Positions 951 through 28,056 of a stretch of 45,900 bases of DNA are shown here, one piece after another. Each line of letters opens with the position of its first letter. Position 1 is the stretch's first letter. The position numbers were made by a program, and so were the translations under genes. The DNA is from a virus. The stretch lies in the IMG/VR virus record IMGVR_UViG_3300021960_000139, positions 1 through 45,900 of that record; one strand, given 5' to 3'. Under the pieces are notes generated by a model. That model was not told the origin of the DNA, made no database searches, and was given only the letters and a program-made list of their open reading frames with translations.

Positions 951-951
951 T

Positions 952-1203: not shown

Positions 1204-1209
1204 TGCATA

Positions 1210-2130: not shown

Positions 2131-3959
2131 TGTTAACAAAATTAAACTTAGCTCCTGGTATAGATAAACAAGATACAGAATACGGTGCTGAAGGTCGTTG
2201 GACCGATGCACAAAATGTACGATTTCATTATGGCTTACCACAAAAAATAGGTGGTTGGACAACAATTATTACAGACACCCTTATTGGTGTTGCAAGAGAT
2301 CAACACACATGGACAGATCTTAATGGTGTACGGTACGCGGCCATCGGCACAGATAGAAAATTATACATTTACACAGAAGGTACAGCATACGATATAACAC
2401 CTATACGTCGTGGTCCTACATCTTTAACAAATCCTTTTACAACAAACGGCACTAACAACGTCACCGTAGCGGATACAGGACACGGTGCTATACAAGGTGA
2501 TTTTGTAACCTTTGATTCTTTCTCTGCTATTGACGGTTTAGATATGAATAATGAATTTGAAATTACATCTATTACAGATGCTAACTCTTATGTTGTAACA
2601 CATACAGATACAGCGACAGGCTCTACAGCAGGAGGCGGTGGTACAGGTAATGCAAATTATCAAATTAGTATTGGACAAGAAACATCAACCTATGGTTATG
2701 GTTGGGGTACTGATGCATGGAATGTTGATGCTTGGAACACACCACGATCTACATCTACCGTAACGATTGATGGTCGTAACTGGGCTTTTGATACGTTTGG
2801 TGAAGACTTAATTGCAACCGTACATAAAGGATCTACTTATCGTTGGGATACATCATCAGGAACCTCAAGCAACAGAGCTGCTGTTATTTCACAAGCTCCT
2901 ACAAGTTCACGGTTTAATCTTGTTTCTATGCCTGATAGACATGTCTTTTTATTTGGTACAGAAACAACAATTGGTACAGCTTCTACGCAAGATGATTTAT
3001 TCTTGCGGTTTTCCTCCCAAGAAGATTATACGGATTGGACACCTGCTGCAACAAACACAGCAGGTTCCTTCCGTATTCAAGATGGATCAAAGATTGTGGC
3101 AGCAACAAGATCACGTAATGCGGTGTTAGTTTGGACAGATACATCCTTGCACGCATTACAATTTGTTGGTGCACCTTTTACTTTTTCTCTTGTACAATTA
3201 GGTGGTGGATGCGGTGCTGTTGGTGTTCATAGTGCTGTTGATATTAACGGTGTTGCGTATTGGATGTCACAAAATGCTTTCTTCTTATACGATGGTACTA
3301 TTCGTAAACTACCATGTTCGGTGCAAGACTTTGTCTTTGAAGATTTTAGCGCGGCTCACCAACCAGAAACATATGCAGGTGTTAATTCAGAGTTTAATGA
3401 AATTACTTGGTTTTATGCGTCTGCTGATTCAAACTTTATTAATAGATCCGTAACGTATAATTATTTAGAAAAGACATGGTATACTAATACATTAGCAAGA
3501 ACAACATGGACAGACTACGGTGTCTATCAACAACCTTATGCAACATTATATAGCCCTACATCTTTACCAACAACGCCTACTGTATTAGGTGTCACTGCTG
3601 GTGCTACCACCTATTATCAACAAGAAACAGGAACTGATGATAACTTAACAGCAATGACAGCTTTTATACAGTCAGGTGATTTTGATATTCAAGACGGACA
3701 ACAATTACTACATATCAGTCGCGGTATTCCTGATTTTAAAAACCAAACAGGTAATGCAACAATTACCATGAACTTTAAAACATATCCAAATGATACATCA
3801 TCTACTACTGTTACTAGAACCGTTAATTCTAGCACGACAAGATTTGATACACGTGGTAGAGGTAGACAAACAAATTTAAAAATTGAAAGCACGGATCTTG
3901 GCGCAAACTGGCGATACGGTACATTGCGTTTAGATGTGCAACCAGATGGAGGTAGATAA
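2130..3959 (+). CDS. P22 gp10-like tail/head stabilisation protein
   Basis: A 609-residue protein with the N-terminal signature LNLAPGIDKQDTEYGAEGRW followed by DAQNVRFHYGLPQKIGGW. This pattern is characteristic of the phage stabilisation protein family (P22 gp10 type), which forms part of the tail hub/needle complex that plugs the portal. The rest is beta-rich, as expected of a propeller-type structural protein. It fits the P22-like portal encoded at 35468. It overlaps the genes on each side by one base, so it is translated in the structural operon. Family assignment rests on the N-terminal motif and on length; I am fairly sure of it. Confidence 0.75.
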   Translation: MLTKLNLAPGIDKQDTEYGAEGRWTDAQNVRFHYGLPQKIGGWTTIITDTLIGVARDQHTWTDLNGVRYAAIGTDRKLYIYTEGTAYDITPIRRGPTSLTNPFTTNGTNNVTVADTGHGAIQGDFVTFDSFSAIDGLDMNNEFEITSITDANSYVVTHTDTATGSTAGGGGTGNANYQISIGQETSTYGYGWGTDAWNVDAWNTPRSTSTVTIDGRNWAFDTFGEDLIATVHKGSTYRWDTSSGTSSNRAAVISQAPTSSRFNLVSMPDRHVFLFGTETTIGTASTQDDLFLRFSSQEDYTDWTPAATNTAGSFRIQDGSKIVAATRSRNAVLVWTDTSLHALQFVGAPFTFSLVQLGGGCGAVGVHSAVDINGVAYWMSQNAFFLYDGTIRKLPCSVQDFVFEDFSAAHQPETYAGVNSEFNEITWFYASADSNFINRSVTYNYLEKTWYTNTLARTTWTDYGVYQQPYATLYSPTSLPTTPTVLGVTAGATTYYQQETGTDDNLTAMTAFIQSGDFDIQDGQQLLHISRGIPDFKNQTGNATITMNFKTYPNDTSSTTVTRTVNSSTTRFDTRGRGRQTNLKIESTDLGANWRYGTLRLDVQPDGGR

Positions 3960-4126
3960 TGGCTAAAATAGCAACAACAAGATTACCTGATGCAACGCCT
4001 GACTATCAGGCAGAACAGTTTAACGCGCTTATTCGTATTCTTGAACAAATTACACAACAATTAAACTTTGGTTTTCAACAAGACATAAAAGACGAATCAA
4101 CGGCTAGGAGCTGGTTCCGTGTCTGA
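3959..4126 (+). CDS. Small hypothetical virion-region protein (55 aa)
   Basis: ATG 3959 overlaps the stop of the preceding gene (TAATG). The product begins MAKIATTRLPDATPDYQAEQ and is predicted mostly helical. The last codons overlap the next gene, whose GTG start lies at 4119. Similar short proteins lie beside gp10-like genes in marine phages. No function is recognised. Confidence 0.55.
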   Translation: MAKIATTRLPDATPDYQAEQFNALIRILEQITQQLNFGFQQDIKDESTARSWFRV

Positions 4127-4469
4127 TATTTTTATTAGTAAATCAGCAGTGGGCACAGGTAGTGCGGTAGCAACATATACCGTACCAACAGCCGACTCAG
4201 GAGCCGTGCCTCCCGTCCCACCGACCACGGCCATTATTAAAAGTATTCGTCTATCCAATCAAACAGGTGGTGCGGTAACAACAACAGTATCTGCTTTTGA
4301 TAACAGTGAATCGGATAGAGAAATACCTTTGTATATAAACAGTTTAGCAGATGCTTCAGAAATAGAAGTATTATCAGAAGGCGTTCCTATTGTATTAGAA
4401 CAAGGAGATGCTATTAAGTTAACAGGATTAAATGTAAGAATATTAATTAGTATAATGGAGATAACGTAA
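4119..4469 (+). CDS. Hypothetical small structural protein (116 aa)
   Basis: The start is GTG 4119, chosen because AGGAG lies at 4106-4110 with suitable spacing and because the coding overlap is only 8 bp. The product (SDIFISKSAVGTGSAVATY...) is beta-rich, with the pattern IIKSIRLSNQTGGAVTTTV. This resembles small virion or connector proteins of tailed phages (compare the genes at 43992 and 44308). Its stop overlaps the next ATG by one base. The role is inferred from style and context. Confidence 0.55.
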   Translation: MSDIFISKSAVGTGSAVATYTVPTADSGAVPPVPPTTAIIKSIRLSNQTGGAVTTTVSAFDNSESDREIPLYINSLADASEIEVLSEGVPIVLEQGDAIKLTGLNVRILISIMEIT

Positions 4470-4729
4470 TGTCAGAGATAGGTAAAAAAGTACAAGACGC
4501 TGAAGTTATTGGCTACGAGGAAGTAGACGGAAATAAAGTTCCTGTTTTAAAACCAGAGGTTTGGGAAAAAGTGTATTGTAATAATTGTAGTAATGAAGTT
4601 GATTCAGAAGAGTTAGCAACAGGTGATTGTAGCGACTGTGGTAATCCTTGGGCTTCAACGAAGACCAAAGATGTTACCATTCGCGTTGTTAAGATGCCAG
4701 ACGTTTTTGGATCTGGAGGAGAACTTTAA
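4469..4729 (+). CDS. Small zinc-ribbon protein
   Basis: An 86-residue protein. Residues about 36-60 contain the pairs CNNC and CSDC, separated by about 16 residues, which is a classic zinc-ribbon layout. It is preceded by a Glu/Val-rich segment (EVIGYEEVDGNKVPVLKPEV). It is the last plus-strand gene of this structural run, and its stop overlaps the stop of a minus-strand gene by 4 bp. Zinc ribbons in small phage proteins often mediate protein or nucleic-acid contacts, but no specific role can be assigned. Confidence 0.6.
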   Translation: MSEIGKKVQDAEVIGYEEVDGNKVPVLKPEVWEKVYCNNCSNEVDSEELATGDCSDCGNPWASTKTKDVTIRVVKMPDVFGSGGEL

Positions 4730-4881
4730 TTTTTCCTGCACTCGCAGTTTTCATCACAGTGACTTGAGTTGTCTTTCTGATGTTTTTCTAATTCTCTTTC
4801 CATAGTCATTAAACGTTCGTGATAGCGCCCCACCTTGTCAGCGAGGACAGCTATGGCTTTTAGTACTTCTTGATTTTCCAT
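4726..4881 (-). CDS. Small coiled-coil, Cys-rich tail protein (51 aa)
   Basis: Read on the minus strand, ATG at 4881 is preceded by a good ribosome site (CAGGAGACATT). The product is MENQEVLKAIAVLADKVGRY, then a Glu/Lys-rich helix (ERLMTMERELEKHQKD), then a cysteine-rich end (HCDENCECRKN). The end could bind a metal or form disulphides. It is convergent with the zinc-ribbon gene, sharing 4 bp, and follows another minus-strand gene 94 bp upstream. Function unknown. Confidence 0.6.
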   Translation of the reverse strand: MENQEVLKAIAVLADKVGRYHERLMTMERELEKHQKDNSSHCDENCECRKN

Positions 4882-4975
4882 AATGTCTCCTGTGATTTGT
4901 ATTTTGGTGAGAACCTAATTTAAACATATTTTCTCTTCAATCAATATTCTTTTTTAAAATTGTTTTCTTGACAAG

Positions 4976-5257
4976 CTATTCGTGTTCTGCGTAGTCAACG
5001 GATAAGTATTCTATTTTTGTTATCCACCCTTTCGGTATAGCAATAGCGCCACCACCTGATATGTCATCTTTGTCTTTACTATAAGATCGCATAATAATTA
5101 CTTTCTCTTTATTATTGTGAATTAACCAACCAACTTCTTGACATGTTGCTAAAGGAGCGTTCATAACGTCCTTTATATCTAGCCATCCTGTCTCTGTATC
5201 ACGGGCATCGAGCCACGTTACACGGACCATTGGTACTTTCTTAATGTCAAAGGTCAT
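4976..5257 (-). CDS. Conserved phage hypothetical protein (93 aa)
   Basis: The product contains MVRVTWLDARDTETGWLDI near its start, then EVGWLIHNNKEKVIIMRSYS and an IAIPKGWITKIEYL ending. Small proteins of this layout (VxVxWxDA ... VGWLI ... IPKxxI) are widespread in phages as uncharacterised host-takeover-type genes. With the 51-aa gene downstream it forms a short minus-strand operon that diverges from the promoter at 5266-5294. An internal Met at residue 10 could also be the start. No enzymatic motif is visible. Confidence 0.6.
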   Translation of the reverse strand: MTFDIKKVPMVRVTWLDARDTETGWLDIKDVMNAPLATCQEVGWLIHNNKEKVIIMRSYSKDKDDISGGGAIAIPKGWITKIEYLSVDYAEHE

Positions 5258-5265
5258 ATTTCTGA

Positions 5266-5294
5266 TTGCACATTACACGAAATTTGCCTATAAT
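5266..5294 (+). promoter_or_regulatory. Sigma70-type promoter for the internal-protein operon
   Basis: TTGCAC (5266-5271), a 17-bp spacer and a perfect TATAAT (5289-5294) give a strong housekeeping-type promoter. It points at the 5376 gene and would leave a 5' leader of about 75 nt. It lies in the divergent gap between the minus-strand pair and the large plus-strand structural operon. Confidence 0.7.
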
Positions 5295-5375
5295 CATATA
5301 AATAATTAGGCTTACTTCTCAAGGCCAGCCTCCTTGCCATAGACAATCACATAAATTGCAGTTAATAAGGAGATT

Positions 5376-6308
5376 ATGCTCAAAGGATTAAAAGGGATTT
5401 TAGAAAAAGCTGTGCAAGTTGCAGCACCTATTATCGGTGGATCTATGTTTGGCCCATTTGGAGCAGCAGCAGGATCAGGAATAGCATCCCTACTTACAGG
5501 AAACAAACCAAAAGATGCTTTAATTTCAGCAGGCTTATCTTATGGTGGTTCCAAGCTTGGCTTTTTACCAGGGGGTGGACAAACAGGCGGTGTAAAACAA
5601 CCAATGCAAGAAGTTATAGCAGCTTCTTCAAGGCAACCATCTTTGTTTGGATCAAGTCCTTCAGATATTATACAAAAAGCACAACAAGCTGATAAAAAAG
5701 GTATTTTAGAAAATTTATTTGGAAAGACAGTAGACTTTCTTGGAAAAAAATCAGGCAAGGACGGAGAAGGACCATCCTATGGCGCACAAATTTTAGCAAC
5801 AGGTTTACCCGCTGCTTTATCTTACATGGCAGCTTTAGAAGATGCAAAAAAAGCAGGAGTTGATGATCCAAGTGAATACATGAGTGCGGTTGATAAATTA
5901 TATGGTGGACAGTTTGCTCCTCCTCCAGAAGATAGAAGAATTAAGAATTTACTTTTTCAAGGTATAGGTGGTGACGGTCAACCTATTTATGCAAATCAAG
6001 GCGGTATTATGAATGCGCAACAACCCGTTCAATATTCCGCAGCTACAGGACAAGGTATTATGGGTATGGCAAAAGGTGGAGATGTATTTCCAAGAAAAAC
6101 AGGTCAAATAGAAGGACCTGGTACAAAGACAAGTGATTCAATACCTGCAATGTTAAGTGATGGCGAGTTTGTACAACGAACTGACGCTGTTAATGGTGCA
6201 GGGGTAATGATGGGAGCAACAAATGCAAAAGAAGCAAGAGAAAAAGGAGCGGACTTTATGTATGCACTACAAGATAAACTTGCTAAAATAGGTCAGAAGG
6301 TAGCGTAA
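5376..6308 (+). CDS. Virion-internal protein candidate with GG motifs (310 aa)
   Basis: Start ATG 5376 has AAGGAG 4 bp upstream. Residues 1-60 are Gly/Ala-rich and hydrophobic (AAPIIGGSMFGPFGAAAG), able to contact membranes. Residues about 232-235 hold AKGG, followed by a Pro/Gly segment IEGPGTKTSDSIPAML, then SDGEFVQRTDAVNGAG. This sequence recurs in marine phage tail or internal proteins. The stop overlaps the next ATG by 1-2 bp, and it heads a run of five overlapping large genes. In a short-tailed phage such a run usually encodes ejection proteins. That role is inferred from place and composition. Confidence 0.55.
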   Translation: MLKGLKGILEKAVQVAAPIIGGSMFGPFGAAAGSGIASLLTGNKPKDALISAGLSYGGSKLGFLPGGGQTGGVKQPMQEVIAASSRQPSLFGSSPSDIIQKAQQADKKGILENLFGKTVDFLGKKSGKDGEGPSYGAQILATGLPAALSYMAALEDAKKAGVDDPSEYMSAVDKLYGGQFAPPPEDRRIKNLLFQGIGGDGQPIYANQGGIMNAQQPVQYSAATGQGIMGMAKGGDVFPRKTGQIEGPGTKTSDSIPAMLSDGEFVQRTDAVNGAGVMMGATNAKEAREKGADFMYALQDKLAKIGQKVA

Positions 6309-7243
6309 TGGCAGAACAGACAACAACACAAATATCAAGAGAAGCTCCATATTTGGAGGATTATAGACGTCGATTATTAGAAGGTACATTTAAATTAGCA
6401 GATCAACCTATTCAACAATATCAAAGAGGCATTGCAGGTTTTGCACCAACAGAAGCGGCAGCTTTTACTGAAGCAGCAAGACAAATGGGCATTGACCCTA
6501 CAACAGGTGCACGAACAGGTGTAGCATCTTTTGAACCTTTTATACAACAAGCGCAAGCAACGATGGGACTTGGTATTCCTTCTCTTCAACAGGCACAAAC
6601 ACAATATGACCCTTCAACAGGTAATAGACAAAATTTCATGAATCAGTATCAGGCTGACGTAACTCAACAAGCATTAAAACAATTAGATGAAGAAGCGGCT
6701 AAAGCAAGTGCGCAATTAGCAGGACAAGCAACAAAAGCAGGTGCGTTTGGTGGTGCAAGATACGGTGTACAACAAGCAGAATTGGCAAAAAATTTACAGG
6801 ACATAAAATCAAAAAGAATATTTGAAGATTTATCAAGAAACTTTATGCAAGCACAACAAGCGGATATTGCAACAAGTGAGTCAGCAAGAGCAAGACAACT
6901 GCAAGCGGCTCCTGTATACGGTCAACTTGGTCAAGGTATTGGTCAATTAGGTGCACAACAATTTGGTCTTGGTCAACAAGGCATTGGAAGCTTATTAAGC
7001 GCAGGTCAAACTCAACGTACAAGAGAGCAAGCGATTGAAGACGAGTTATTTAGATTTAGAACAGGAGCGGCTCAAGAACCACGAACAAGATTAGGATTTA
7101 CAGCAGATATACTAGCGGGTGTGCCTTCCGTTCAACAAACGGTTACACAACAGCCTATACCATATACTAATCCTTTAGCAGCAGCTGTGGGATCAGGTCT
7201 CACAGGACTTGCTGGTTTAGGTGCTTTCTATAAAGGATCATAA
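6308..7243 (+). CDS. Gln/Ala-rich internal virion protein (311 aa)
   Basis: Very rich in Gln, Ala and Gly with long predicted helices (YQADVTQQALKQLDEEAAK, ASAQLAGQATKAGAFGGARY). It begins with an extended PYLEDYRRRLLEGTFKLADQP segment. Helical Gln/Ala-rich proteins just downstream of a portal-plug region resemble the ejection (internal core) proteins of podoviruses such as P22 gp7/gp16/gp20, but no direct homology can be claimed by eye. It overlaps both neighbours by one base. Confidence 0.55.
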   Translation: MAEQTTTQISREAPYLEDYRRRLLEGTFKLADQPIQQYQRGIAGFAPTEAAAFTEAARQMGIDPTTGARTGVASFEPFIQQAQATMGLGIPSLQQAQTQYDPSTGNRQNFMNQYQADVTQQALKQLDEEAAKASAQLAGQATKAGAFGGARYGVQQAELAKNLQDIKSKRIFEDLSRNFMQAQQADIATSESARARQLQAAPVYGQLGQGIGQLGAQQFGLGQQGIGSLLSAGQTQRTREQAIEDELFRFRTGAAQEPRTRLGFTADILAGVPSVQQTVTQQPIPYTNPLAAAVGSGLTGLAGLGAFYKGS

Positions 7244-8901
7244 TGGCAGATTCTATTTTTAATAGACCTATGTTTGCAGCAGGTCAGTATGCGGATCCTG
7301 TAACACCTAAAAAAGGAGCTCCAACAGAACAAGTCAAATTTGGTTTTGATGACATTTATAAATCTGATTTTACACCTTTTGATGCAGAGGGCGTTGCAAG
7401 TTTAATGCAAACATATGCACAGCCTGAAGCTACAAGACAAGCTTACGAAGAATTTGCAGGAAGTCCTAAAAGTGCAGAAGAATTTGCAAATGAGTATGAT
7501 AACTTATATCCTGGTACAGAAACAGCAGAAGAAAATTACAGTTTTGAAAGTAATTTAGCTTTAGCAAGATTAGGACTAGGTTTAATGCAGCCAACACCTG
7601 GCGGTGCTATAGCTCCAGCAATTGCAAAAGCAGGTGAGAATTTTTTAGCAGACCTTGCAAATGTTAATGAAAAAAAACGACTAGCAAAAGCAGCGAATAG
7701 AGAACAAGAAAGAGAAGATGAAAGATCCAAAAGGGAATATGTTTTAAATGCATTAAAAGAACAACGTGACATGAGAGACTCAAACGAATTTGATTTATTC
7801 ATGAAAGTTTTACAATTTAACATGGACAGTGATGAAGGTAACGTTGGCTTTAGAAGAGAACTTGCAAAACAAAACTTTGCTTACAAGTATGACGTTGACA
7901 TCATGGCGATGGAAAACAATGCAAAATTATTAGCTGAACAGTTTGAAAAAACACCAAAAGTATTTGCTATCAAACCAGAAGGTTTGGATCAAACAGTAAA
8001 ATACGTAACAGGATACTTAGGTATTGATCCAAAAGATGGTATAGAAAAACCTTTCATACCAAAGCAAGTAGGAGATCAAATTATTTATGAGCCAGCGCCA
8101 TTAGATGCTGTAATGGCAAACTTTAGCTTAAATGATGATAATTCGTTAAAACAAGATGTAAAAGCACAGATAGCTCAAGCGGAAAAAATAAATACAGGTA
8201 ATCAAGCACTATCTTTTATTGGTGATATTAAAACATCTATTGCTCAAAATAGAGGAAGAGTTGGTGCACCAGGTGCTATTAAAAAGACATTACAAAATGT
8301 TAAAGGTACTATTCTTGATATCGCGGATACTTTTGTTGAAGCTGGTGTTATTGATCAAGAATCGTACGAGGCTGCAAAAAATAAAATTGAATCAAGTGTA
8401 TTTAATGATTTAGCAGGTTCTTATCAAGGAGCGTATCCTGGCAGGAATGCTACTGATTTTTATTCTGATTTAGAATCAGATGAAAACAAAATCTATCAAG
8501 AATTTTTTGTTAAGCCACGTGAAAACTATGATCCCGCACTCGCTGCAAATGAAATTAAATTAAATGCAATTTACTACGCAGTTGCAAGAGCAAGAAAACC
8601 AACTGGTCGTTTGAATGTTGATGACGTTAATAATGCAAAAGCATCTTTATCATTATATAATTTAGATACTTCTTCAGATACTGTTATTACATCGTTAGGT
8701 GCAATTGAAGCTGAATTACAAGGCTTTGTTAGTGCACAAAAACAAATATACAAAAAAGCAGGATACGAAGAAGGGTTTTTATATAACTATAATCCATCAA
8801 AATTTAGCACAGAACCAGAATTACAAAATCAAGATCCTAACAAATCATTAGACGGAGCAACAGAGTTTGTTGATCCGTACGCAGACTTGGAGATAGAATA
8901 A
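7243..8901 (+). CDS. Internal virion protein candidate (552 aa)
   Basis: Largely alpha-helical. Residues about 140-175 form a highly charged coiled-coil-like stretch (NEKKRLAKAANREQEREDER). A short Ala/Gly-rich stretch near residues 105-135 (GGAIAPAIAKAG) could contact membranes. The C-terminus is acidic (FVDPYADLEIE). It is in the same overlapping operon as the genes on either side. Length and helix content fit an ejection-type protein, with no catalytic motif seen. Function otherwise unknown. Confidence 0.5.
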   Translation: MADSIFNRPMFAAGQYADPVTPKKGAPTEQVKFGFDDIYKSDFTPFDAEGVASLMQTYAQPEATRQAYEEFAGSPKSAEEFANEYDNLYPGTETAEENYSFESNLALARLGLGLMQPTPGGAIAPAIAKAGENFLADLANVNEKKRLAKAANREQEREDERSKREYVLNALKEQRDMRDSNEFDLFMKVLQFNMDSDEGNVGFRRELAKQNFAYKYDVDIMAMENNAKLLAEQFEKTPKVFAIKPEGLDQTVKYVTGYLGIDPKDGIEKPFIPKQVGDQIIYEPAPLDAVMANFSLNDDNSLKQDVKAQIAQAEKINTGNQALSFIGDIKTSIAQNRGRVGAPGAIKKTLQNVKGTILDIADTFVEAGVIDQESYEAAKNKIESSVFNDLAGSYQGAYPGRNATDFYSDLESDENKIYQEFFVKPRENYDPALAANEIKLNAIYYAVARARKPTGRLNVDDVNNAKASLSLYNLDTSSDTVITSLGAIEAELQGFVSAQKQIYKKAGYEEGFLYNYNPSKFSTEPELQNQDPNKSLDGATEFVDPYADLEIE

Positions 8902-11900
8902 TGATATATAAAGAACCATCAATGGTTCCTGAAGGATACATGTCTGTGGAGCTTCCTTCACAGCAAACAGGTTTACGTGGACCACGATATATTACTGTTA
9001 AAAAAGAAGTATTGGAAAGATCAGTTGATCCTGAAACAGGACAGGATAGAGCAATACCTAAAGTTAAAGGAGCTCCTTTTGATAACAGAACTTTTTATCC
9101 AATTTTTGCACCACGAACAGAGGTTGAGCAAAATAATGTTATTAAATTAATTAACAGAGAAAGAGCAAAGGAAGATAAAAATCCTATTAACGCAAAACAA
9201 TTTAATTACATTACAAATCAAATGGCTAACGCTTTACAATCGCAAGAAGCCGTAGCAGATGAAATGAAAAGAAGAGAGGACCCTTACAAATATTATGTAA
9301 AGAAATTTAAAGATGCATATGATCCTCAAGTACATCGTAATGCGGTTGATAACACTGCTAGTATCTTTCAAATATTTAGAGATCCTAAAAAATTTGCTCA
9401 AAATAAATATACAGAATTAAATCAAATGGTACGAAATGTTGCACCTGGATCACGAAATGATTTTATTATGGCTGGTGACATTGGTGGTTCTATGTTTGGA
9501 TTTAAAGGTGGACCAAAACCTGGTGGAGCAAAAGTACCAAAGAGTCTTGCTGATGAAGTGTTGGAAGGTTCTATATTTAAAACAACAGCGGGTGCAACAG
9601 CAGGCGGTACAGCAGCGAGTCTCGTATACGATTTAACAAACGCGGCAATACGTAAAACAATGGGCATACCAGATCCTCAAGATGCACCAAACGCGGCCCT
9701 CGAAGCATTAACACATGGTAGAAATACCTTGTACTTTACAGGCGGTGCTGCAGGTTTGATGGGGATTGCTTCATATTTACGACCAATGTTAGGAAAAGCA
9801 TTATTTGGTTTGGAAGGACCAAAAGCTCAATTTGCGAACATCGCAGAATTTTATAATGTGCCTATTGGTATATCACAATTATCAAGAGGAGCTGGTGGAG
9901 CGCTGTCTCCTGTGGCAGGAAAATTTTTTCAAGTTATTGGTAAAATACCTCTCTTAGGAGGGGGCTTTTCAAAAAGAAATACACTTGCTTCCATACAATT
10001 AACTAAAGGCATGAAAGATGCATTAGGTGATCTTGGAAGAGGTCAAAGTGATGATCCTTTAATTGATTATATAAGTAATAGTTATAAATCATTGCCAAGA
10101 GCAGTGAGAAAACAAATGGACACTGATGCCAGAAATGCTGGATTTAGAAGTTACAAAGACATGATGGCTGCTGAATTAAGAGTAAATGAATTAGCTCCAA
10201 TACAACATATGACAGAAGTAGGTGCTTTTATGTTTGAAGAAGCTGGTAAGAGATACAGACAATTCTCTTACATTAATGATTTGTTGTACACAGATTTCGA
10301 AAACAAAGCAAAAAAAATATCTAAATCTTTTATACCTACGTCAAGAACAAAATCTATGGCACAAAGTATTAGAGATGAAATTGCAGACATGAAAGTTCAA
10401 TTAGAAAATTATAGTGAATTTAAACCTGAGCTTGATAAGATTGAAAAATTTGTTGTTGAAACATTATCTAACTTGCCTGATTATATAAAACCAAAAGATG
10501 TGAGAACGTTTCAACGTGAGATTAACAGATTGTATCAAGAAGCGGAAAGTAAGTTAGGTCCAGGTGGTGCTAAACAAGGTATAATGGGTGGAAGTTTATT
10601 AGCCAAAGCTAGAAAAGCATTAACAGGAGATTTAAACGACTATGCAAACTGGGCACCAGGATTAAATGCGGAAGAAAAAGTATTAGCAGAAGCTGCAAAA
10701 AAATCTTTGTACAGAGCTAATGAAGTATTTGGAAAAATGAGTCCTTTATATAAAAGCCCTGCAGCAAAACAGTTTAATTTAGTTGATCAGAATTTATTTA
10801 CATCAGGGCCAGACTTACCTGGTTATTTTTATTCTGATGAAATTGGTAAGATGTTATTTAGAGATGGCTTGTCACCACAGCGTGTAAGAGACTATCAACA
10901 ACTTGTTGGTCAAAATGCATTTATGACGGGTGTAAGATCATGGGTTAATAATGGTTTTAAAGCAGCTTTAGATGATGCTCCTGAAATAGCTGTTAAAGTA
11001 GCAGACCCTTCAGGAAAACCAGGAACTATAACAATCAATGAAAAAATATTAGATGTTGATAAGTTAAAACAAAATATTAATTTTAAAGATGAAGGTTTTG
11101 AAGAAATGATGAATCTTGCTGGATACAACGGCAAAGCATTTAAAGAAAATATTAATAATTTAGTAGCGTTGCAGTCTATGGTAAAACAAGCAGGCATAGG
11201 TACATCTACCTCACAACTTGTTGCAAGACGTTTATCTTTAGGTGGTCTAAGATCTGCTGCAAATACTTTTGCTATTTTTGGTTCAGGTGCGGCGGCAGGA
11301 GCAAGCGCTAATGAAGGAGGCTTTTTTGGTTATCTTGGGGGTGGTTTAGCTGGATCAATTATGCTTGGTTTATTGACACGAAGAACAGCAAACTTTTTAT
11401 CGGAGCCAGGTGCATTGAAAGCATATACAAAAATTGTAGATCCAAAAACATCTGATGTGGTAAAGAGAGCATCTCTTGTTAATTTCTTACGAGGATATTT
11501 TAGACAACCTACTATTAGAGAAGAGTTACCAAAAGAGTTTAATACACCTGATAAGGTAGCAAAAAATCCAAATGGGTTTTTAGATTATTTATACAACAGT
11601 GAATATCTTGCTGTAACAGATAGTATCAATGATGGCTTTATGCGTGACTACATGAATGAAAGATACGGAGATAATTTAAATCTTAATATACAAAACTTAC
11701 AAAACATTGAAACAGAAGAAAAAGCTTTAGAAGATATTGAAACAGGAAAAGCTAGTGTCATTGAAGGTGATACAGAAATAGCTATGCCTGACGTTCCTAG
11801 TATGGGTGGTGAGTCTATGTTCGATACAAATGCAGCAATATCAGGGCCTGGTTTAAGAGGAATGGGTCAAAGCAGTCCGTTGAACACGGACCAACGAGCA

Positions 11901-11954
11901 GCGTTAGCATCAGGTGATATAGATGCAGCGTTAGCATTGAGAGGACAAAGCTAA
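8901..11954 (+). CDS. Large internal/ejection protein candidate (1017 aa)
   Basis: The largest gene of this operon. It has several Gly/Ala-rich hydrophobic patches (TAGATAGGTAASLVY around residue 235, YFTGGAAGLMGIASYL around 280, a long one around 795-830 with FGSGAAAGASANEGGFFGYL). Between them are long charged helices. Large helical proteins with scattered membrane-prone patches are typical of podovirus ejection proteins that form a channel across the cell envelope. No lytic transglycosylase motif was spotted. It overlaps both neighbours by one base. The role is inferred. Confidence 0.5.
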   Translation: MIYKEPSMVPEGYMSVELPSQQTGLRGPRYITVKKEVLERSVDPETGQDRAIPKVKGAPFDNRTFYPIFAPRTEVEQNNVIKLINRERAKEDKNPINAKQFNYITNQMANALQSQEAVADEMKRREDPYKYYVKKFKDAYDPQVHRNAVDNTASIFQIFRDPKKFAQNKYTELNQMVRNVAPGSRNDFIMAGDIGGSMFGFKGGPKPGGAKVPKSLADEVLEGSIFKTTAGATAGGTAASLVYDLTNAAIRKTMGIPDPQDAPNAALEALTHGRNTLYFTGGAAGLMGIASYLRPMLGKALFGLEGPKAQFANIAEFYNVPIGISQLSRGAGGALSPVAGKFFQVIGKIPLLGGGFSKRNTLASIQLTKGMKDALGDLGRGQSDDPLIDYISNSYKSLPRAVRKQMDTDARNAGFRSYKDMMAAELRVNELAPIQHMTEVGAFMFEEAGKRYRQFSYINDLLYTDFENKAKKISKSFIPTSRTKSMAQSIRDEIADMKVQLENYSEFKPELDKIEKFVVETLSNLPDYIKPKDVRTFQREINRLYQEAESKLGPGGAKQGIMGGSLLAKARKALTGDLNDYANWAPGLNAEEKVLAEAAKKSLYRANEVFGKMSPLYKSPAAKQFNLVDQNLFTSGPDLPGYFYSDEIGKMLFRDGLSPQRVRDYQQLVGQNAFMTGVRSWVNNGFKAALDDAPEIAVKVADPSGKPGTITINEKILDVDKLKQNINFKDEGFEEMMNLAGYNGKAFKENINNLVALQSMVKQAGIGTSTSQLVARRLSLGGLRSAANTFAIFGSGAAAGASANEGGFFGYLGGGLAGSIMLGLLTRRTANFLSEPGALKAYTKIVDPKTSDVVKRASLVNFLRGYFRQPTIREELPKEFNTPDKVAKNPNGFLDYLYNSEYLAVTDSINDGFMRDYMNERYGDNLNLNIQNLQNIETEEKALEDIETGKASVIEGDTEIAMPDVPSMGGESMFDTNAAISGPGLRGMGQSSPLNTDQRAALASGDIDAALALRGQS

Positions 11955-12784
11955 TGCCACACGGAGGTTATCATGGCACAGTTAAAATGGGTGGTAAAAC
12001 CATTCAACAAGGCTATCAAGATAATTCAGGTAATTATCAAATACGAGGAGGTATTGATGACAACTCACGGTTAGACAAGAATCCTCCGAGAAATGTTCAA
12101 CCTGCTCAATTACCTAACATACCAGATAATTTAATTACAAATGAAATGAGGTTGCAGAATATTATTGATAATAAAGATATTTTTAAAAATCAACCCTCAC
12201 CAACTAGACCTGGTATGAATGTCTATCAGGATAGAATGCAAGATTTTAGAACTTCTACTCCCGAAGCTATGCAAACATATGCAAATCGTTTTCCTCTTAC
12301 ACAGTTTGCAATGACAGGTCTTCCTAGAATTGCAATGTCTATGATTCCAGGTGGTAATGTTTTCTCTGCTATTGCTAATGCTTATCAATCGGGAAAAGGA
12401 AAAGTGCAAGGAGGATTATCTTCTATTGCTGATGAATTCAGTGGAACACTTGCTGGGTTAAAAAGTTTATTACCAACGAGCCTTGGCGGTGCAAATGTCC
12501 CTGACGTTTCTACACCAATTAAATTTATTGATGAAAGCAGACCTGAAGATTATCCTTTAAAAGATATGGCAGTAGATCAAACGCCATTGTCTAACTTTTT
12601 TAAAATACCAATGTACACACAAAATTACCCTGAACAACAAGCAGGCCCAAATCCAACATATGTTGATCCCAGAGAAATTAGAGAATTTTTAAATCCTAAT
12701 AAAAAATTTAATGAAGGAGGACTTGCATCATTAAGTAACCCAGAATATGATATGTTGATGAAAGCGAGTGACTTTAGTTTATGA
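11954..12784 (+). CDS. Virion protein candidate with C-terminal GG tag (276 aa)
   Basis: Begins with a His/Gly-rich head (MPHGGYHGTVKMGGKTIQQG) and is Pro/Asn-rich in the middle. It has one hydrophobic segment (LPRIAMSMIPGGNVFSAIA). It ends with FNEGGLASL (residues 252-260) and SNPEYDMLMKAS. The double-Gly motif near the C-terminus resembles motifs in four other products of this phage (see findings). It is the last large gene of the internal-protein operon, overlapping the next gene by 4 bp (ATGA). Confidence 0.5.
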   Translation: MPHGGYHGTVKMGGKTIQQGYQDNSGNYQIRGGIDDNSRLDKNPPRNVQPAQLPNIPDNLITNEMRLQNIIDNKDIFKNQPSPTRPGMNVYQDRMQDFRTSTPEAMQTYANRFPLTQFAMTGLPRIAMSMIPGGNVFSAIANAYQSGKGKVQGGLSSIADEFSGTLAGLKSLLPTSLGGANVPDVSTPIKFIDESRPEDYPLKDMAVDQTPLSNFFKIPMYTQNYPEQQAGPNPTYVDPREIREFLNPNKKFNEGGLASLSNPEYDMLMKASDFSL

Positions 12785-13005
12785 AAGATTTAACTTTTAG
12801 AGACGCTGTTTGGTTAGCACTAATTGTTTTTGGTGCGGGAGCATCTTATATGATGCTATCATCAAGATTGGAAGCCGTTGAACAAAAAGCAAACACCTTA
12901 GAGGCAATAGTCCTAAAAGAAATACCAGAAATGAGTGAACGATTAGTACGCCTTGAAACAAAAATGGATTTGTTATTAAAAACACAAACCGCTTCAATCA
13001 AATAA
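12781..13005 (+). CDS. Single-TM coiled-coil membrane protein (74 aa)
   Basis: Residues about 9-26 (AVWLALIVFGAGASYMML) form one membrane segment, followed by a coiled coil (LEAVEQKANTLEAIVLKEIPE...LVRLETKMDLLL). The layout resembles small phage holin-accessory or inner-membrane spanin proteins. The start overlaps the previous stop (ATGA). It ends 12 bp inside the 3' end of the convergent helicase gene. A lysis or envelope role is possible but unproven. Confidence 0.6.
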   Translation: MKDLTFRDAVWLALIVFGAGASYMMLSSRLEAVEQKANTLEAIVLKEIPEMSERLVRLETKMDLLLKTQTASIK

Positions 13006-14430
13006 TATTTTCTTCGGATCTTCTCCCATAACTTGACTAGCTAAATCTATTTTAGCATTCAATGCTTTTACAATCTTCTCATCTATAGTATGATCTGCCA
13101 TTAAATCTACGTATGTCACTTTCGATGTTTGCCCTATTCTATGCGCTCGGTCTTCTGATTGTAATCGTACTTCTAATGAGTAATCGTTAGAGTAATACAC
13201 AACAGTGTGAGAAGAAGTAAGAGTAAGGCCATAACCTCCTGTTTTGGGATTTCCAACAAAAAATCGAAGAGGATCATCAGCATCCATAAACCTGTCAACA
13301 ATAGACTGGCGTATACTATCTTTTGTATCCCCGTAATACGTCGCAACACTTTCTTTACCATACTTCTCTCCTAACGTTCTTTCTATCTCTTGTATGTCAT
13401 AACGGTACACGGCCCAGATAATAACCTTACCATCTGTCTCCTCAAGTACCTCTAATAATTCTTTTATACGATTACTCTTGATTGGTTTCACTTCTCCGTC
13501 GTCTGTTTTGACATGACCACAAATTATTTGATGTAATCGTATCATTTGTGTCAAAACGGAGGCTGCGGTCATCACATTTTCTTCAAAGAACGTTATTGCC
13601 GCTTTTTTCATCTCTGTGTAAGCTTTTACCTGTTCCGCGGTCAATGACACAGACCGCTTCGTATAAACCTTCTCAGGTAGGTCTAAACAGTCACTTTTTA
13701 AGACGCGAGTCGAAAAATGCTGTATTTTTTCCTGTAATTCGTCCAATCTTTGATATTTGACAATGTGTTGAAAAGAATGTGTACCGACACTACGTTGAAC
13801 GATCACAGCATACCTTGCACGGAACCCGTAGTACGATTGTTGTTCCAACAACCACGGATCAAGGAACTGAACTTGTGAAAACAAATCAAGTGGTGACTTG
13901 GTAACAGGTGAACCTGTCATGATACGTCTATACTTTGCAAGCTCTGCTAATTTAATTATATTTTTTGTACGTGCCGCCGAATGATTTTTTATGGTAGTTG
14001 ATTCATCTACACACATTAATGAATTGTTGCGTGTTAAAAAACTTTTTGCGAAGTCCCGACCACGGACCGTGGACAATGCTTCTATATTCATAATGAGAAC
14101 GGTCAAGTCATCAACGCTCACGGACAACTGATCAAGCTCGTCTTTTTCTTTTTTCTTTGGTGAAGCTGACCATACACCAACACGATAGTTTATGTGATCG
14201 GCTAAATGTATTCCTAATTCATTACGCCAGTTACGTTTGATACCATTAGGTACAACGATTAATGCTGCATTTATTTTGCCTTTGTCATACAAAATAGCAA
14301 TATTATCAATGCAAACCTTCGTTTTACCTGTACCCATCTCCATGAATAAGGCCCAAACTTCTTTATTCCAACTTTGTTTCAATGCATCTAATTGATGTTG
14401 AAACGGCTTTGTTTTAAATCTATAATCCAT
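12994..14430 (-). CDS. SNF2-family DEAD-like helicase
   Basis: A 478-residue superfamily 2 ATPase on the minus strand. Walker A is MGTGKT (residues 32-37). The Walker B region reads CVDESTTIKN, with DES in place of DEAH as in many phage SNF2 proteins. Motif III is MTGSP, and the C-terminal helicase lobe has GGYGLTLTSSHTVVYYS with SEDRAHRIGQ as motif VI. RIGQ is the SNF2 hallmark. It probably translocates on duplex DNA to remodel replication or recombination intermediates. It is the only large minus-strand gene; its own promoter lies at 14451-14479. It converges on the 12781 gene and diverges from the replication operon. Confidence 0.85.
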   Translation of the reverse strand: MDYRFKTKPFQHQLDALKQSWNKEVWALFMEMGTGKTKVCIDNIAILYDKGKINAALIVVPNGIKRNWRNELGIHLADHINYRVGVWSASPKKKEKDELDQLSVSVDDLTVLIMNIEALSTVRGRDFAKSFLTRNNSLMCVDESTTIKNHSAARTKNIIKLAELAKYRRIMTGSPVTKSPLDLFSQVQFLDPWLLEQQSYYGFRARYAVIVQRSVGTHSFQHIVKYQRLDELQEKIQHFSTRVLKSDCLDLPEKVYTKRSVSLTAEQVKAYTEMKKAAITFFEENVMTAASVLTQMIRLHQIICGHVKTDDGEVKPIKSNRIKELLEVLEETDGKVIIWAVYRYDIQEIERTLGEKYGKESVATYYGDTKDSIRQSIVDRFMDADDPLRFFVGNPKTGGYGLTLTSSHTVVYYSNDYSLEVRLQSEDRAHRIGQTSKVTYVDLMADHTIDEKIVKALNAKIDLASQVMGEDPKKILFD

Positions 14431-17803: not shown

Positions 17804-19416
17804 TGAAAAGAAATATAGTTATAGGTCCTCCTGGCACAGGCAAGACAACATTTTTAAAAGATAAAGTTGATAAATTAATTAGTGGTGGTCATTGTCGACC
17901 AGATGAGATTGGATACTTTAGTTTTACAGTAAAAGCTGCTGAAGAGATTCGTGACAGAGTCACGAAGGAGGAGTGGAGTGAGGCGGAATTAAAAAAGCTG
18001 TTCCCTTATTTTTGTACGCTTCACTCGCTCGCTTATAAACGATTACAGTTACAACAATCACAGATCATGGATCAAAGTGATTATGATGACTTATCACGGA
18101 ACACGGGCCGTTTCTTTGTTAACAAGATGAAGAAAGGTAATGGTATGGACATCTCTATGCCAACCGCAAAGAGTGAGTATCAAGACTTGATTAATTTAGC
18201 GTATGCAAAGTTTCCTGATGATGACGATAGACTCAATCAAATTTTTCGTACTGTTAAGCTCAGTGACTACGGCGCACGGAACACGATTGAACAAATGGAT
18301 TTAGATCTAAAAAATTTTAAACGTGATAGAGATAAATTAGAATACGTTGATTACTTTAATCATTTTTTAAAGAAAAAAAATCCGCCACCATTAAAATATT
18401 TATTTGTTGATGAAGCACAAGATTTATCTGCGCACCAATGGCAAGTCATTGACATGATACAAGAAGTGGCAAAACCAATTGAAACATATGTTGCTGGTGA
18501 TGATGATCAAGCAATCTTTCGTTGGGCAGGTGCAGACATCGAACACTTTATTAATATGGCACAGGATGAAAATAATACTATCATTCCTTTAACACAGTCA
18601 TATCGTATTCCTAAAAGTATACACACTATTGCCACAAAATTAGCACAGTCAATATCACGAAGAATTGATAAAAGTTACAAGCCAAGAGATGAAGAAGGCG
18701 AGAGAAAAGTCTTAAATATCAGACCTTTAAACAAAGGATTGGCTGAAGGCGAGTGGTTAATTTTATGTCGTACACATGAGATTGTGCAACAAGTTTCTGA
18801 ATCTTTAGAGCAGTTTGGTTGGTTGTATAAACGCTACGGACAATCCGTTGTTAATTTAAAATATATTGAAGCTATCAAAACGTGGACCACGTTGCAAAAT
18901 GGTAAAGAAGTTTCTGGTCAGTTATGTGATACTGTTTATCAGTTTATGGATAGCACACGCATAAAAAGAAACTACGGAACATTTAAAGGTGATCATGCTG
19001 CTGTTTACACATTAGAAGATTTAATAAAAGATTATGGTTTGCGTGAAACAATCAAAGACATAGACGTGCGTACCATGAAATGGTATGATGTATTGAATGC
19101 GAAAGGATTAAGAAAGAGAATAAATTATCTCAGAGCTATTATGCGTGAAGGAAATAAATTAGATGACACACCACGCATAGAAGTATCAACAATACATGCA
19201 AGTAAAGGCGGGGAGAGAGACAACGTTATGTTGTTGACGGATCTATCTTATGGTCCTTACAAATCATCTACAGAAACACAACAAGGTAGAGATGATGAAG
19301 CAAGAGTTTTCTATGTTGGTATGACAAGAGCCAAAAAGAAATTAATTGTTGTGCGTCGCACAGAAGCGCAGTTTGAATACGAACCTATATTTTTTCATGA
19401 AAGGAGATCGGCATGA
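17803..19416 (+). CDS. UvrD/PcrA-like superfamily 1 helicase
   Basis: A 537-residue SF1 helicase. Walker A is GPPGTGKTT (8-16) and motif Ia is FSFTVKAA. Motif II is LFVDEAQDLS, the glutamine motif region GDDDQAIFRWAG is motif III, and LTQSYRIP is motif IV. IHASKGGERDNV is motif V and FYVGMTRAKKKL is motif VI. It should unwind DNA 3'-5' at the replication fork or during repair. It is translationally coupled to PrimPol (TAATG) and overlaps the next gene by 4 bp. No separate replicative DnaB-type helicase was found in the window, so this enzyme may serve the fork. Confidence 0.85.
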   Translation: MKRNIVIGPPGTGKTTFLKDKVDKLISGGHCRPDEIGYFSFTVKAAEEIRDRVTKEEWSEAELKKLFPYFCTLHSLAYKRLQLQQSQIMDQSDYDDLSRNTGRFFVNKMKKGNGMDISMPTAKSEYQDLINLAYAKFPDDDDRLNQIFRTVKLSDYGARNTIEQMDLDLKNFKRDRDKLEYVDYFNHFLKKKNPPPLKYLFVDEAQDLSAHQWQVIDMIQEVAKPIETYVAGDDDQAIFRWAGADIEHFINMAQDENNTIIPLTQSYRIPKSIHTIATKLAQSISRRIDKSYKPRDEEGERKVLNIRPLNKGLAEGEWLILCRTHEIVQQVSESLEQFGWLYKRYGQSVVNLKYIEAIKTWTTLQNGKEVSGQLCDTVYQFMDSTRIKRNYGTFKGDHAAVYTLEDLIKDYGLRETIKDIDVRTMKWYDVLNAKGLRKRINYLRAIMREGNKLDDTPRIEVSTIHASKGGERDNVMLLTDLSYGPYKSSTETQQGRDDEARVFYVGMTRAKKKLIVVRRTEAQFEYEPIFFHERRSA

Positions 19417-19769
19417 TATCTAAAGATTTACTAGAGCAAGCCAGTAAATTAATTGGCGGTGATCGCCAAGAAGATTATGGTGATAAACTTACAAATCATC
19501 AGAACATTGCAGATTTCTGGTCTGTTTTTTTAAAGACACCAATTACAGCACATGATGTTGCGATATGTATGGCCTTGGTTAAAGTAGCACGGCTCATGAA
19601 CCAACATAAAAAAGATAGTTACATTGATATGGCCGCGTACGCTGCGATAGCAGGAGAAATAGAAGCAAGAACAGATAAAGATATTTCTTTTGAATCAGAA
19701 GGAGAGAGACGAGGACGACAAACAAGTGAAGCTATTAAGCAATGGCATAAGGAAAGAGAAAAAAAATGA
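19413..19769 (+). CDS. DUF6378-type conserved phage protein
   Basis: A 118-residue helical protein. The segment GGDRQEDYGDKLTNHQNIADFW, then TAHDVAICMALVKVARL and SYIDMAAYAAIAGEIEA matches what I recall of the DUF6378 family, common in phage replication regions. The Glu/Asp arrangement recalls all-alpha NTP pyrophosphohydrolases, but I cannot show an active site. Wedged between helicase and polymerase with 4-bp overlaps at both ends, it probably acts in nucleotide or replication metabolism. Confidence 0.6.
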   Translation: MISKDLLEQASKLIGGDRQEDYGDKLTNHQNIADFWSVFLKTPITAHDVAICMALVKVARLMNQHKKDSYIDMAAYAAIAGEIEARTDKDISFESEGERRGRQTSEAIKQWHKEREKK

Positions 19770-22591: not shown

Positions 22592-22992
22592 AACAAAAAT
22601 ATGAAGAAGGTTACATGGATTACATAAAGAAAATGGGTGTATCCAAAAAAAAATTAAAAATTTCAGAACAAATGGATGTTGGCGAGTATAAAATAAATTA
22701 CGACACGGATCCTGTTGAACTGATGTATAAAGACGAAAATGACACAACAAGTGTCCCTTTTGAATGGACAGACGCTAATCTTTTAAAAGCCTTGGAAGAA
22801 GATATTCAAGAAATTTTTGAGTATTTTACGAGTGGAAAATTAGATAAGGAAAAAACACCTACTTATTTAGATATTTTGTATTCTCTTCCTAGAGTTATTA
22901 AACTTCAATTGGCGAAAAAGGATTTGTTTATTAATCCTGGTTCAAAAGACGCAATTAAGAAACATGAACAATACTTACGAGAGGGAAGATAA
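22588..22992 (+). CDS. Hypothetical acidic protein (134 aa)
   Basis: Rich in Lys, Asp and Glu, with helix-forming segments (DANLLKALEEDIQEIFEYF) and no catalytic motif. It is coupled to both neighbours (4-bp overlap upstream, 1-bp overlap downstream). It is conserved-looking in composition with surrounding genes but not recognised. Confidence 0.5.
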   Translation: MKQKYEEGYMDYIKKMGVSKKKLKISEQMDVGEYKINYDTDPVELMYKDENDTTSVPFEWTDANLLKALEEDIQEIFEYFTSGKLDKEKTPTYLDILYSLPRVIKLQLAKKDLFINPGSKDAIKKHEQYLREGR

Positions 22993-23141
22993 TGAACATC
23001 AAGAAGTTTAAAAGTGTGGCAGTAGCCATTGAAACGTACAAATTATTGAAGAAGATAGCTGCCGCCGACGATCGGTCGGCTGGTATGCAAATAACCTACT
23101 TGGTAAAACAAGAAGCAAAAAAAAGAAAGTTAACAGCATGA
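22992..23141 (+). CDS. Ribbon-helix-helix-like regulator (49 aa)
   Basis: The product is FKSVAVAIETYKLLKKIAA then DDRSAGMQITYLVKQEAKKR. A short beta-strand (SVAVAI), a first helix and a second helix after the DRSAGMQ turn match the Arc/MetJ-type ribbon-helix-helix fold that binds DNA as a dimer. ATG 22992 overlaps the previous stop and the stop overlaps the next ATG (ATGA). It probably controls this early operon or packages with the ParB-like protein. Confidence 0.65.
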   Translation: MNIKKFKSVAVAIETYKLLKKIAAADDRSAGMQITYLVKQEAKKRKLTA

Positions 23142-26050: not shown

Positions 26051-26262
26051 GCGATCAAGAAATACTCAAGCAACGTGATTTATTGGACACGCTCCTCGCA
26101 TCACGGAACACGGGTCAATATGACAGATTAGAGAACATGAAAGTCATGGATTCAATCTATTTTAGAGAAAAACTACCTAAAAACGTAATATTATTCCCAT
26201 TACAAAGGATAAAACGGTATGTACACAAAACTACCCGAAAGCCCAGTAAGAAAAGTATATAA
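26047..26262 (+). CDS. Hypothetical small protein (71 aa)
   Basis: ATG 26047 overlaps the previous stop. The N-terminal half is helical (MSDQEILKQRDLLDTLLASR), the C-terminal half basic (PLQRIKRYVHKTTRKPSKKS). Codons 19-22 carry the dispersed CACGGAACACGGG sequence. It overlaps the next gene by 44 bp. No function can be assigned. Confidence 0.5.
   Translation: MSDQEILKQRDLLDTLLASRNTGQYDRLENMKVMDSIYFREKLPKNVILFPLQRIKRYVHKTTRKPSKKSI
26102..26114 (+). repeat. Dispersed repeat CACGGAACACGGG
   Basis: This 13-mer also occurs exactly at 18095-18107. Its first 12 bases occur inverted at 27895-27906, and its first 11 at 18275-18285. In an AT-rich sequence this is unexpected. Where it is coding it uses the otherwise uncommon codons CGG and ACG. 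Confidence 0.6.
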
Positions 26263-26419
26263 GTGTCGCCATTGCGGTGACGTATCAATAAAATTCTATA
26301 ATCCAAAGCACGACAGAGTATACACTGCTGAAGAGTGGGAAGTAATCATGACTGATGGACGCCAGGCATTGGATAGAGCTCTTAGATTAGTGCGTGATGA
26401 TCCAAAGATGTTCTCATAA
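26219..26419 (+). CDS. Small CxxC protein (66 aa)
   Basis: The start ATG 26219 lies inside the preceding gene, after AAAGGATAAAACGGT. VYKCRHCGDVSIKFYNPKHD gives one CxxC, perhaps a half zinc site completed by His residues or by dimerisation. The C-terminal part is helical (EEWEVIMTDGRQALDRALRL). It is the last gene before the repeat array and small terminase. Confidence 0.5.
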   Translation: MYTKLPESPVRKVYKCRHCGDVSIKFYNPKHDRVYTAEEWEVIMTDGRQALDRALRLVRDDPKMFS

Positions 26420-26484
26420 ATGCCGTTCCCTATAGATGTTTCTATGACAAATTTATTTTAAAATATTTTTTTAGTAAAATACAA

Positions 26485-26570
26485 GTTACAAGGTTACAAG
26501 GTTACAAGTAGCAGAATACTTACCTTTTTTTGTAACTTCTTGTAACTTACAACTATTTACAGGTTACAAG
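26485..26570 (+). repeat. GTTACAAG repeat array upstream of terS
   Basis: Three GTTACAAG octamers abut head to tail (26485-26492, 26493-26500, 26501-26508). Two inverted copies follow (TTTGTAAC 26529-26536 with one mismatch, CTTGTAAC 26539-26546), then a direct copy (26563-26570). The surrounding 26420-26660 region is very AT-rich and has no gene. Such arrays are binding sites for a dedicated protein, so this is a candidate packaging start (pac/cos recognition), replication origin or operator. Confidence 0.7.
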
Positions 26571-26663
26571 ATATCTATATTTTACGAAAAAAACTCGCAT
26601 TTCTCGGAAATATTTAGTAATATAATTATTATTTGAGAAAAACATCTATAGAAAAGGTGCATT

Positions 26664-27188
26664 ATGAAAGAAAATAAAGACGTAATTATCCCTGAAGCAT
26701 ACTCTGATGCATTATTTGACAGGAAACTATCGGAGAAACAAAGAAGGTTTGTATTGTTTCTTGTCCATTCCGAAGGACTCAAAACAGCTACACAATGTGC
26801 AATTGATGCTGGGTATGCACCTGGTTCAGCTCGGGTGAGAGCTTCTGAGCTACAACACCCTGAGAAATCACCACTTACTGCAAAAGCAATTGAGATGGAA
26901 CGAAGAGCTGTGTTGGATCGGTACAAGTGTAGTCAGGACAGGTCGTTGGCTACATTGGCACGCATCAGAGATGCTGCGTCATCTGCTGGTAACTACAACG
27001 CTGCGGTTGCTGCAGAGACCAGGCGTGGACAGATTGCTGGGTTGTATGTTGATAAGAAAGAAATCCTTACAGGTACGATTGACTCTATGTCGAGAGAAGA
27101 GGTTGAGAAGAAGTTACAGGACTTGAAGGAACAGTACAGTATTGAAACGACGTTTGAGGAAGTAAAAGAATTAGAAAATAAGTCTTGA
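26664..27188 (+). CDS. terS: Terminase small subunit
   Basis: A 174-residue protein. LSEKQRRFVLFLVHSEGLKT followed by ATQCAIDAGYAPGSARVRAS is the N-terminal HTH region of the Terminase_2-type small subunit. The middle is a helical oligomerisation region, and the Glu-rich C-terminus (SREEVEKKLQDLKEQY) would contact the large subunit. It starts packaging by recognising phage DNA; the GTTACAAG array lies 94 bp upstream. The large subunit is 3.1 kb away, an unusual separation. Its stop codon lies inside the -35 box of the next promoter. Confidence 0.75.
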   Translation: MKENKDVIIPEAYSDALFDRKLSEKQRRFVLFLVHSEGLKTATQCAIDAGYAPGSARVRASELQHPEKSPLTAKAIEMERRAVLDRYKCSQDRSLATLARIRDAASSAGNYNAAVAAETRRGQIAGLYVDKKEILTGTIDSMSREEVEKKLQDLKEQYSIETTFEEVKELENKS

Positions 27189-27527: not shown

Positions 27528-27628
27528 TTCAAATGGTGCTTTTATTACTTGTTATATTGTTAGCTTTTAATTGGAAATTAGCATTGATGATAGGTGTTTT
27601 TATTTATTATTTCGGTATGCCTTTTTGA
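27524..27628 (+). CDS. Membrane microprotein (34 aa)
   Basis: GTG 27524 has GAAGAGG upstream; ATG 27533 is an alternative. Almost all of it is hydrophobic: MVLLLLVILLAFNWKLALMI then GVFIYYFGMPF, one or two short membrane segments. Its TGA overlaps the TTG start of the nuclease (TTGA). It could be a holin-like or membrane-stress peptide, or serve mainly to couple translation. Confidence 0.5.
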   Translation: MIQMVLLLLVILLAFNWKLALMIGVFIYYFGMPF

Positions 27629-28056
27629 AACCAGAATCAAAACTATGGCAAATGGTACGAAAGAATTTGTCAAATATACATTGGACTAGGTTTGAATCTT
27701 GGGTAAATCAAGGTGTACCAGACTTGCATGGCATCTCTGCTGGGATCAACATTTTTGTCGAGTTAAAAGTAACATCAAGTAATAAGATAAATATTAGCCC
27801 CTTCCAAAAAGTGTGGAATATTAAGCATACTTTACATGGTGGAAGATCTTTTATTATGCTTCAGCACCTCTCTCAGAGAGCACTGTATATATTTCCGTGT
27901 TCCGTGCTCCATTCTACATTGTCCATTACCCCCGAAACCCGCCCCCAGTATAGAGTAGAGCTCCCCGCATCTCCTGCTGCCTGGGATGCAATCCACGAAC
28001 ATCTTCTGCGTTCTCCATTTCCATTACCAAAGCCCAATCCCACAGGGGACATATAG
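27625..28056 (+). CDS. VRR-NUC/PD-(D/E)XK-type nuclease with repeat-derived 3' end
   Basis: I choose TTG 27625, overlapping the microprotein stop, giving a 143-residue protein starting MKPESKLWQMVRKN. Glu24, PD (32-33) and ELK (46-48) in the segment GVPDLHGISAGINIFVELKV form the catalytic PD-(D/E)XK set, and QKVW follows as in VRR-NUC enzymes. It is likely to cut branched or nicked DNA, for example as a resolvase preparing DNA for packaging. From about residue 80 codons become GC-rich, and from residue 95 the DNA overlaps the 85-bp repeat family, so the tail may be a replaced or added segment. Confidence 0.65.
   Translation: MKPESKLWQMVRKNLSNIHWTRFESWVNQGVPDLHGISAGINIFVELKVTSSNKINISPFQKVWNIKHTLHGGRSFIMLQHLSQRALYIFPCSVLHSTLSITPETRPQYRVELPASPAAWDAIHEHLLRSPFPLPKPNPTGDI

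Follow-up and report, generated by a model that had tools for sequence, protein, structure and literature searches.

A repeat array upstream of the terminase genes of HTVC023P-type podophages, a putative operator whose unit changes between relatives

Immediately upstream of the small terminase gene (terS) in the viral DNA analysed here (the window, a 45,900-base viral record, classified as linear) lies an array of 8-bp repeats that, judging from sequence comparison between relatives, is probably read by a sequence-specific protein. It may well serve as an array of operator sites for a small ribbon-helix-helix (RHH) protein that the same phage encodes at 22992-23141, binding being predicted. 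An earlier note on this DNA had listed an operator among several options and had named RHH proteins as possible ligands; of those options, the one with the strongest support is now an RHH-bound operator. Matches of the capsid, TerL and TerS point to the HTVC023P-type podophages, a group described as widespread in the ocean, for which literature searches found neither a described regulatory element nor a packaging signal, and nothing relevant on repeats before terS. The array and its candidate reader would form a directly testable protein-DNA pair, also present in the cultured HTVC023P, where gp13 is the RHH protein, and the more than ten spellings of the unit found at one fixed gene position offer a natural record of how such sites change.

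The array and its genomic setting

The array occupies a gap of 244 bp (26420-26663) between a 66-aa ORF and terS, in agreement with the description in the earlier note of an AT-rich, gene-free stretch (AT-richness judged by eye). The six copies described there, five of them exact and in both orientations, correspond to the positions of GTTACAAG and GTTACAAA in Table 1, to which can be added several degenerate copies and a flanking inverted repeat that were absent from that description. The core of this inverted repeat, ATAGATGTT/AACATCTAT, is kept in most of the window-clade relatives shown.

Table 1. Features of the array and its surroundings in the window, and repeat units in relatives
Feature	Sequence	Position or group	Strand	Basis or remark
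Three tandem exact units, period 8	GTTACAAG	26485-26492, 26493-26500, 26501-26508	+	letters read
Exact copy, inverted	GTTACAAG	26539-26546	-	
Exact copy, direct	GTTACAAG	26563-26570	+	
Inverted copy, one mismatch to GTTACAAG	GTTACAAA	26529-26536	-	
Degenerate copy abutting the tandem block on its 5' side	AATACAAG	26477-26484	+	letters read; putative member
Degenerate direct copy	TTTACAGG	26556-26563	+	letters read; several relatives have TTTACAAG at the same place
Degenerate extra copy	TTACAAC	26548-26554		
Inverted repeat around array, left arm	CTATAGATGTTT	26430-26441	.	
Inverted repeat, right arm, close before terS start	AAACATCTATAG	26640-26651	.	
terS, next gene 3' of array		26664-27188	+	PHROG 51 (2e-12) and 641; Pfam Terminase_2 slightly below cut-off
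66-aa ORF, last of upstream gene block, conserved neighbour		26219-26419	+	
49-aa RHH protein, proposed array reader		22992-23141	+	AF2 model, Foldseek, VIA
Class W	GTTACAAG, GTAACAAG and mixtures	window clade		
Class C	AAGTTACC	window clade		
Class D	GTAACAGT	window clade		
Class E	AGGTAACCT	window clade		
Class F	ATGTAATTT	window clade		
Class G	GTAACCAG	window clade		
Class H	ATGTTATTT	window clade		
Class I	GGTATCC	window clade		
Unit of the G021 clade	GTAGCAGT	G021 clade		three-tandem plan kept, unrelated spelling
Unit of G022 and G023	TCATAATG	G022, G023		three-tandem plan kept, unrelated spelling
Copies in HTVC023P	CTAGGAAA	HTVC023P		looser plan
Clusters	TAGGGTCA	G024, G026		

Such a concentration of copies is not reproduced by shuffled sequence. 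Dinucleotide shuffles of the window (n=30) gave a maximum of 2-3 non-overlapping copies of any 8-mer per 90 bp, and shuffles of the gap (n=2000) at most 3, versus the 5 observed. A search of the window for triple tandems with periods of 7-9 found no other, and only two further exact copies of GTTACAAG, at 18674 and 34355, occur in the whole 45.9 kb. Its period of 8 falls within the 7-11 bp spacing of short similar sites taken here to mark an RHH operator array. The spelling of the unit is not itself a specific marker, the exact 24-mer being found also in unrelated Bacteroidota and Verrucomicrobiota contigs, nor does GTTACAAG alone constitute proof, the motif being present in phages L097, L101 and L106 as well. 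In L097 (near 1063) and L101 (near 5702), which are unrelated, Bacteroidota-like phages, a GTTACAAG array lies between primase/helicase-like and small nuclease-like genes.

The gene order shared by the longer relatives G001-G003 (60-76 kb) runs from an SNF2-like helicase through an SSB-like protein, primase, UvrD, PolA, the RHH protein, variable genes and two small ORFs to the array, and continues with TerS, TerL, portal and capsid. Two of these contigs, G001 and G002, extend beyond one unit of ~61 kb into 80-88% similar sequence, which implies a circular or permuted map; the window covers about three quarters of it. The ends of G001 (1-14400 and 61500-75600) share tail-region sequence at this level of similarity and probably represent two strains joined around a circular ~61 kb map. 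Within terS, the part encoding the helix-turn-helix (HTH) half (26664-26933) occurs as at least four alleles, recombining independently of the C-terminal half and of the array. Further 3', the ORF at 27571-28056 contains a GVPDLHG...ELK motif, recognised by eye only, and may encode a VRR-NUC-type nuclease. The PHROGs label of phosphofructokinase given to the ORF at 19413-19769 is doubtful, as the product is only 118 aa.

A conserved place and a changing unit

The earlier note had proposed looking for the array at the same place in relatives, and it is indeed found directly 5' of terS, both in the window clade and in two clades less closely related to it. Within the window clade (155 loci, comprising 86 distinct arrays) it lies immediately before terS in essentially all cases. 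The relatives share a plan of three tandem 8-9-bp units followed by more copies, of which as a rule two are inverted and one is direct, while the spelling of the unit varies (Table 1). Other spellings in the G021 clade include CATAGC, GTTGCG, GTCTTGT, GTCTAAG and GTAGCGGT, and are mostly mirrored by the inverted copies. A one-base difference between the tandem and inverted copies is seen in L372-L375.

When units from the tandem block were matched to the rest of the region, the mean score was 21.5/24 within genomes versus 17.0 between genomes (permutation p about 1e-5, or 2e-5 once similar units had been collapsed). Tandem and dispersed copies therefore agree within a genome while the unit differs between genomes, a pattern which suggests that a sequence-specific protein reads them. 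Conservation of a hairpin was rejected, the dispersed copies of classes H and F being mostly direct rather than inverted; the constraint is hence on sequence and not on pairing.

The loci L328 and L329 have upstream DNA that is 95-100% identical over much of its length, but they differ in array and terS. Both G022 and G023 carry three extra tandem copies of their own unit just before the replication operon. No second array was found, at the level of exact 7-mers, in the fetched loci of the three clades (300 loci).

The RHH protein as candidate reader

The AF2 model of the protein at 22992-23141 has a mean pLDDT of 81, with low confidence in the strand region. Nearly all Foldseek and VIA matches to the model are RHH proteins (Arc, CopG, AmrZ, PutA, SvtR), and CopG is among the closest folds (VIA Z 7.5); no Foldseek E-value was under 0.001, and a Pfam search with this protein gave no match. 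The gene is near-universal upstream of the array, being found in 54 of 55 window-clade loci with at least 4.5 kb of upstream DNA, 1.3-4 kb before the array, and in 64/65 loci of the two distant clades with enough upstream DNA, or 118/120 loci with enough flank overall. A profile search of G022 detected no RHH protein, and one RHH-like ORF was recognised there by eye; none was detected in G024 and G026, the contigs of which are partial.

The strand of the RHH protein and the core of the unit correspond between clades, with almost no cross-over. KFKSVAV (87 sequences) occurs with a GTWAC core, of which 79 of the 86 distinct arrays have at least 4 copies; KYKSVAT (29 sequences) occurs with GTWGC (34/48 arrays); and a strand that is mainly KWKSVAI/V (37 sequences) occurs with CTAGG (37/61 arrays). 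Within the window clade the strand is constant and most arrays have the GTWAC core, and in other clades both change together. This pairing is consistent with the RHH protein reading the core of the unit, with the caveat that it amounts to some three to four independent contrasts and that differences between clades are a general property of core genes. Two departures were noted: L525/L391, partly masked in sequence, combine the strand KYKS with a GTCTTG unit, and L509 combines a different RHH protein with CTAGG. Inside a clade the RHH protein has no explanatory power for changes of the unit, because identical or near-identical RHH proteins are found with units W, C and H.

Other genes of the upstream region make poorer candidates. 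An HTH_17 protein (22088) and a ParB-like protein (23138) were present in only 2 and 18 loci, respectively, versus 87 for the RHH protein in the same set, all these counts being limited by how far the contigs reach. Covariation with the unit was rejected for orf66, orf71, PolA, UvrD, primase and the SSB-like protein, each of which occurs as identical proteins with different units; for o22292 no identical pair exists, and pairs at least 95% identical have different units. The RHH protein is hence the best candidate reader, and is put forward as such.

In the composite operator envisaged, a DNA-binding protein specified by the phage itself would recognise a series of 8-bp sites by their sequence. 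These sites lie where the replication block adjoins the packaging and virion block, close upstream of terS. RHH dimers would cooperate in binding adjacent sites, whether direct or inverted, in the manner of omega, CopG and F55 of SSV1, and once bound may control transcription of terS and the genes after it by repression or activation. The findings counted in its favour include the near-universal presence of the RHH gene upstream, the match of copies within genomes, the pairing of strand and core by clade, the extra tandem copies before the replication operon of G022 and G023, as would be expected if two promoters shared one operator, and the form of the array itself, since RHH proteins are suited to rows of 7-8-bp sites on both strands. 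We infer both the RHH protein as reader and the presence of a promoter at the array; a sigma-70 scan at the array returned no strong promoter, and no more hits than in shuffles.

Rival readings and comparable systems

The earlier note had regarded the array foremost as a candidate packaging site bound by TerS. The tie to terS holds in three clades, whereas the comparisons do not support a TerS-bound packaging site. According to this proposal, which we consider unlikely, rings of TerS would attach to the array, or to bent DNA there, with TerL cutting close by, giving SPP1-like headful packaging and circularly permuted DNA, as would suit a map of ~61 kb that behaves as circular. The pac region of SPP1 spans the terS promoters and contains direct repeats, and it is bound by the TerS of SF6 with hardly any sequence specificity (PMC4737164), for which reason headful packaging could begin at the array. 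Nevertheless, a TerS of this kind would leave the match of copies within genomes unexplained, and the HTH alleles of TerS have been swapped independently of the array. Genomes with the same array can have different TerS recognition helices. The N-terminal HTH half is highly variable and exchanged apart from the C-terminal half: arrays 97-99% identical accompany TerS N-terminal halves only 63-68% identical in DNA (L004/L073, L006/L305, L062/L347), L023 (W) and L025 (D) encode identical TerS proteins, and L087 (W) and L329 (H) have a recognition helix in common. Array identity correlates less with that of the TerS N-terminal half (Spearman 0.30) than with that of the upstream ORF (0.65). Furthermore, HTVC027P and psg01, in which terS is reversed, have no such array directly at terS, and the second TCATAATG array of G022 and G023 is far from terS and is more in line with an operator common to two transcription units than with a packaging site. 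A cos site or other fixed DNA end at the array was rejected, as 30 of the 31 PolA-selected contigs that extend as far as the array continue beyond it; this speaks against a fixed end, not against headful initiation.

That second array would also suit an iteron replication origin bound by an initiator, with the copy before the replication operon serving in autoregulation, and an AT-rich gap with short direct and inverted repeats, replication genes upstream, and the position of the GTTACAAG arrays of L097 and L101, immediately following a primase/helicase-like gene, are all in keeping with it. An origin nonetheless appears improbable, given that the primase, UvrD, PolA and SSB-like proteins are identical in L328 (W) and L329 (H) despite their different units, and that there is no sign change of GC skew at the array, although the genes lie nearly all on one strand. 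The same pair of loci, through its difference in array and terS next to near-identical upstream DNA, could be explained by a host regulator or another phage protein reading the sites, with changes of unit following changes of host; among the neighbouring phage proteins tested, none varies in step with the unit within a clade. We give this little credence, for it conflicts with the correspondence of RHH strand and unit core between clades, and the link to hosts is conjectural. Rather speculatively, the rewriting of the unit in all copies at once, and its exchange almost independently of every neighbouring gene, might mark a fast-diversifying recognition array, as if to evade something else that recognises these sites, be it a satellite, a host factor or a competing phage.

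The array can be compared with several known systems. The met boxes of MetJ are 8-bp tandem boxes bound by RHH dimers. MetJ operators thus resemble the array in period, and CopG has a fold near that of the RHH model, whereas both act on cellular or plasmid genes and show no homology past the fold. The omega protein of pSM19035, a small RHH ParB, binds contiguous, non-palindromic 7-bp repeats in direct or inverted orientation at promoters; it differs in having WATCACW as its site, 7-10 contiguous repeats and a ParA partner, as opposed to 8 bp with three contiguous and further dispersed copies here (PMC9499535), and no ParA was noticed among the window proteins examined. F55 of SSV1 and SvtR of SIRV1 are likewise small viral RHH proteins, binding tandem repeats at virus promoters and a structural-gene promoter, respectively, but belong to archaeal transcription with other sites, and the likeness to the candidate is one of size and predicted fold (PMC5569661). 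In SPP1 and SF6, repeats precede terS and also lie at its beginning (PMC4737164). In those phages TerS binding and the cleavage site are established, whereas the array here is known from sequence, and its copies match per genome.

In L109 (Pelagibacter phage HTVC027P), the sequence GATGTTTCACGTGAAACGC is found upstream of terS; it is close to TGTTTCACGTGAAACA, which we take to be the bacterial chromosomal parS site.
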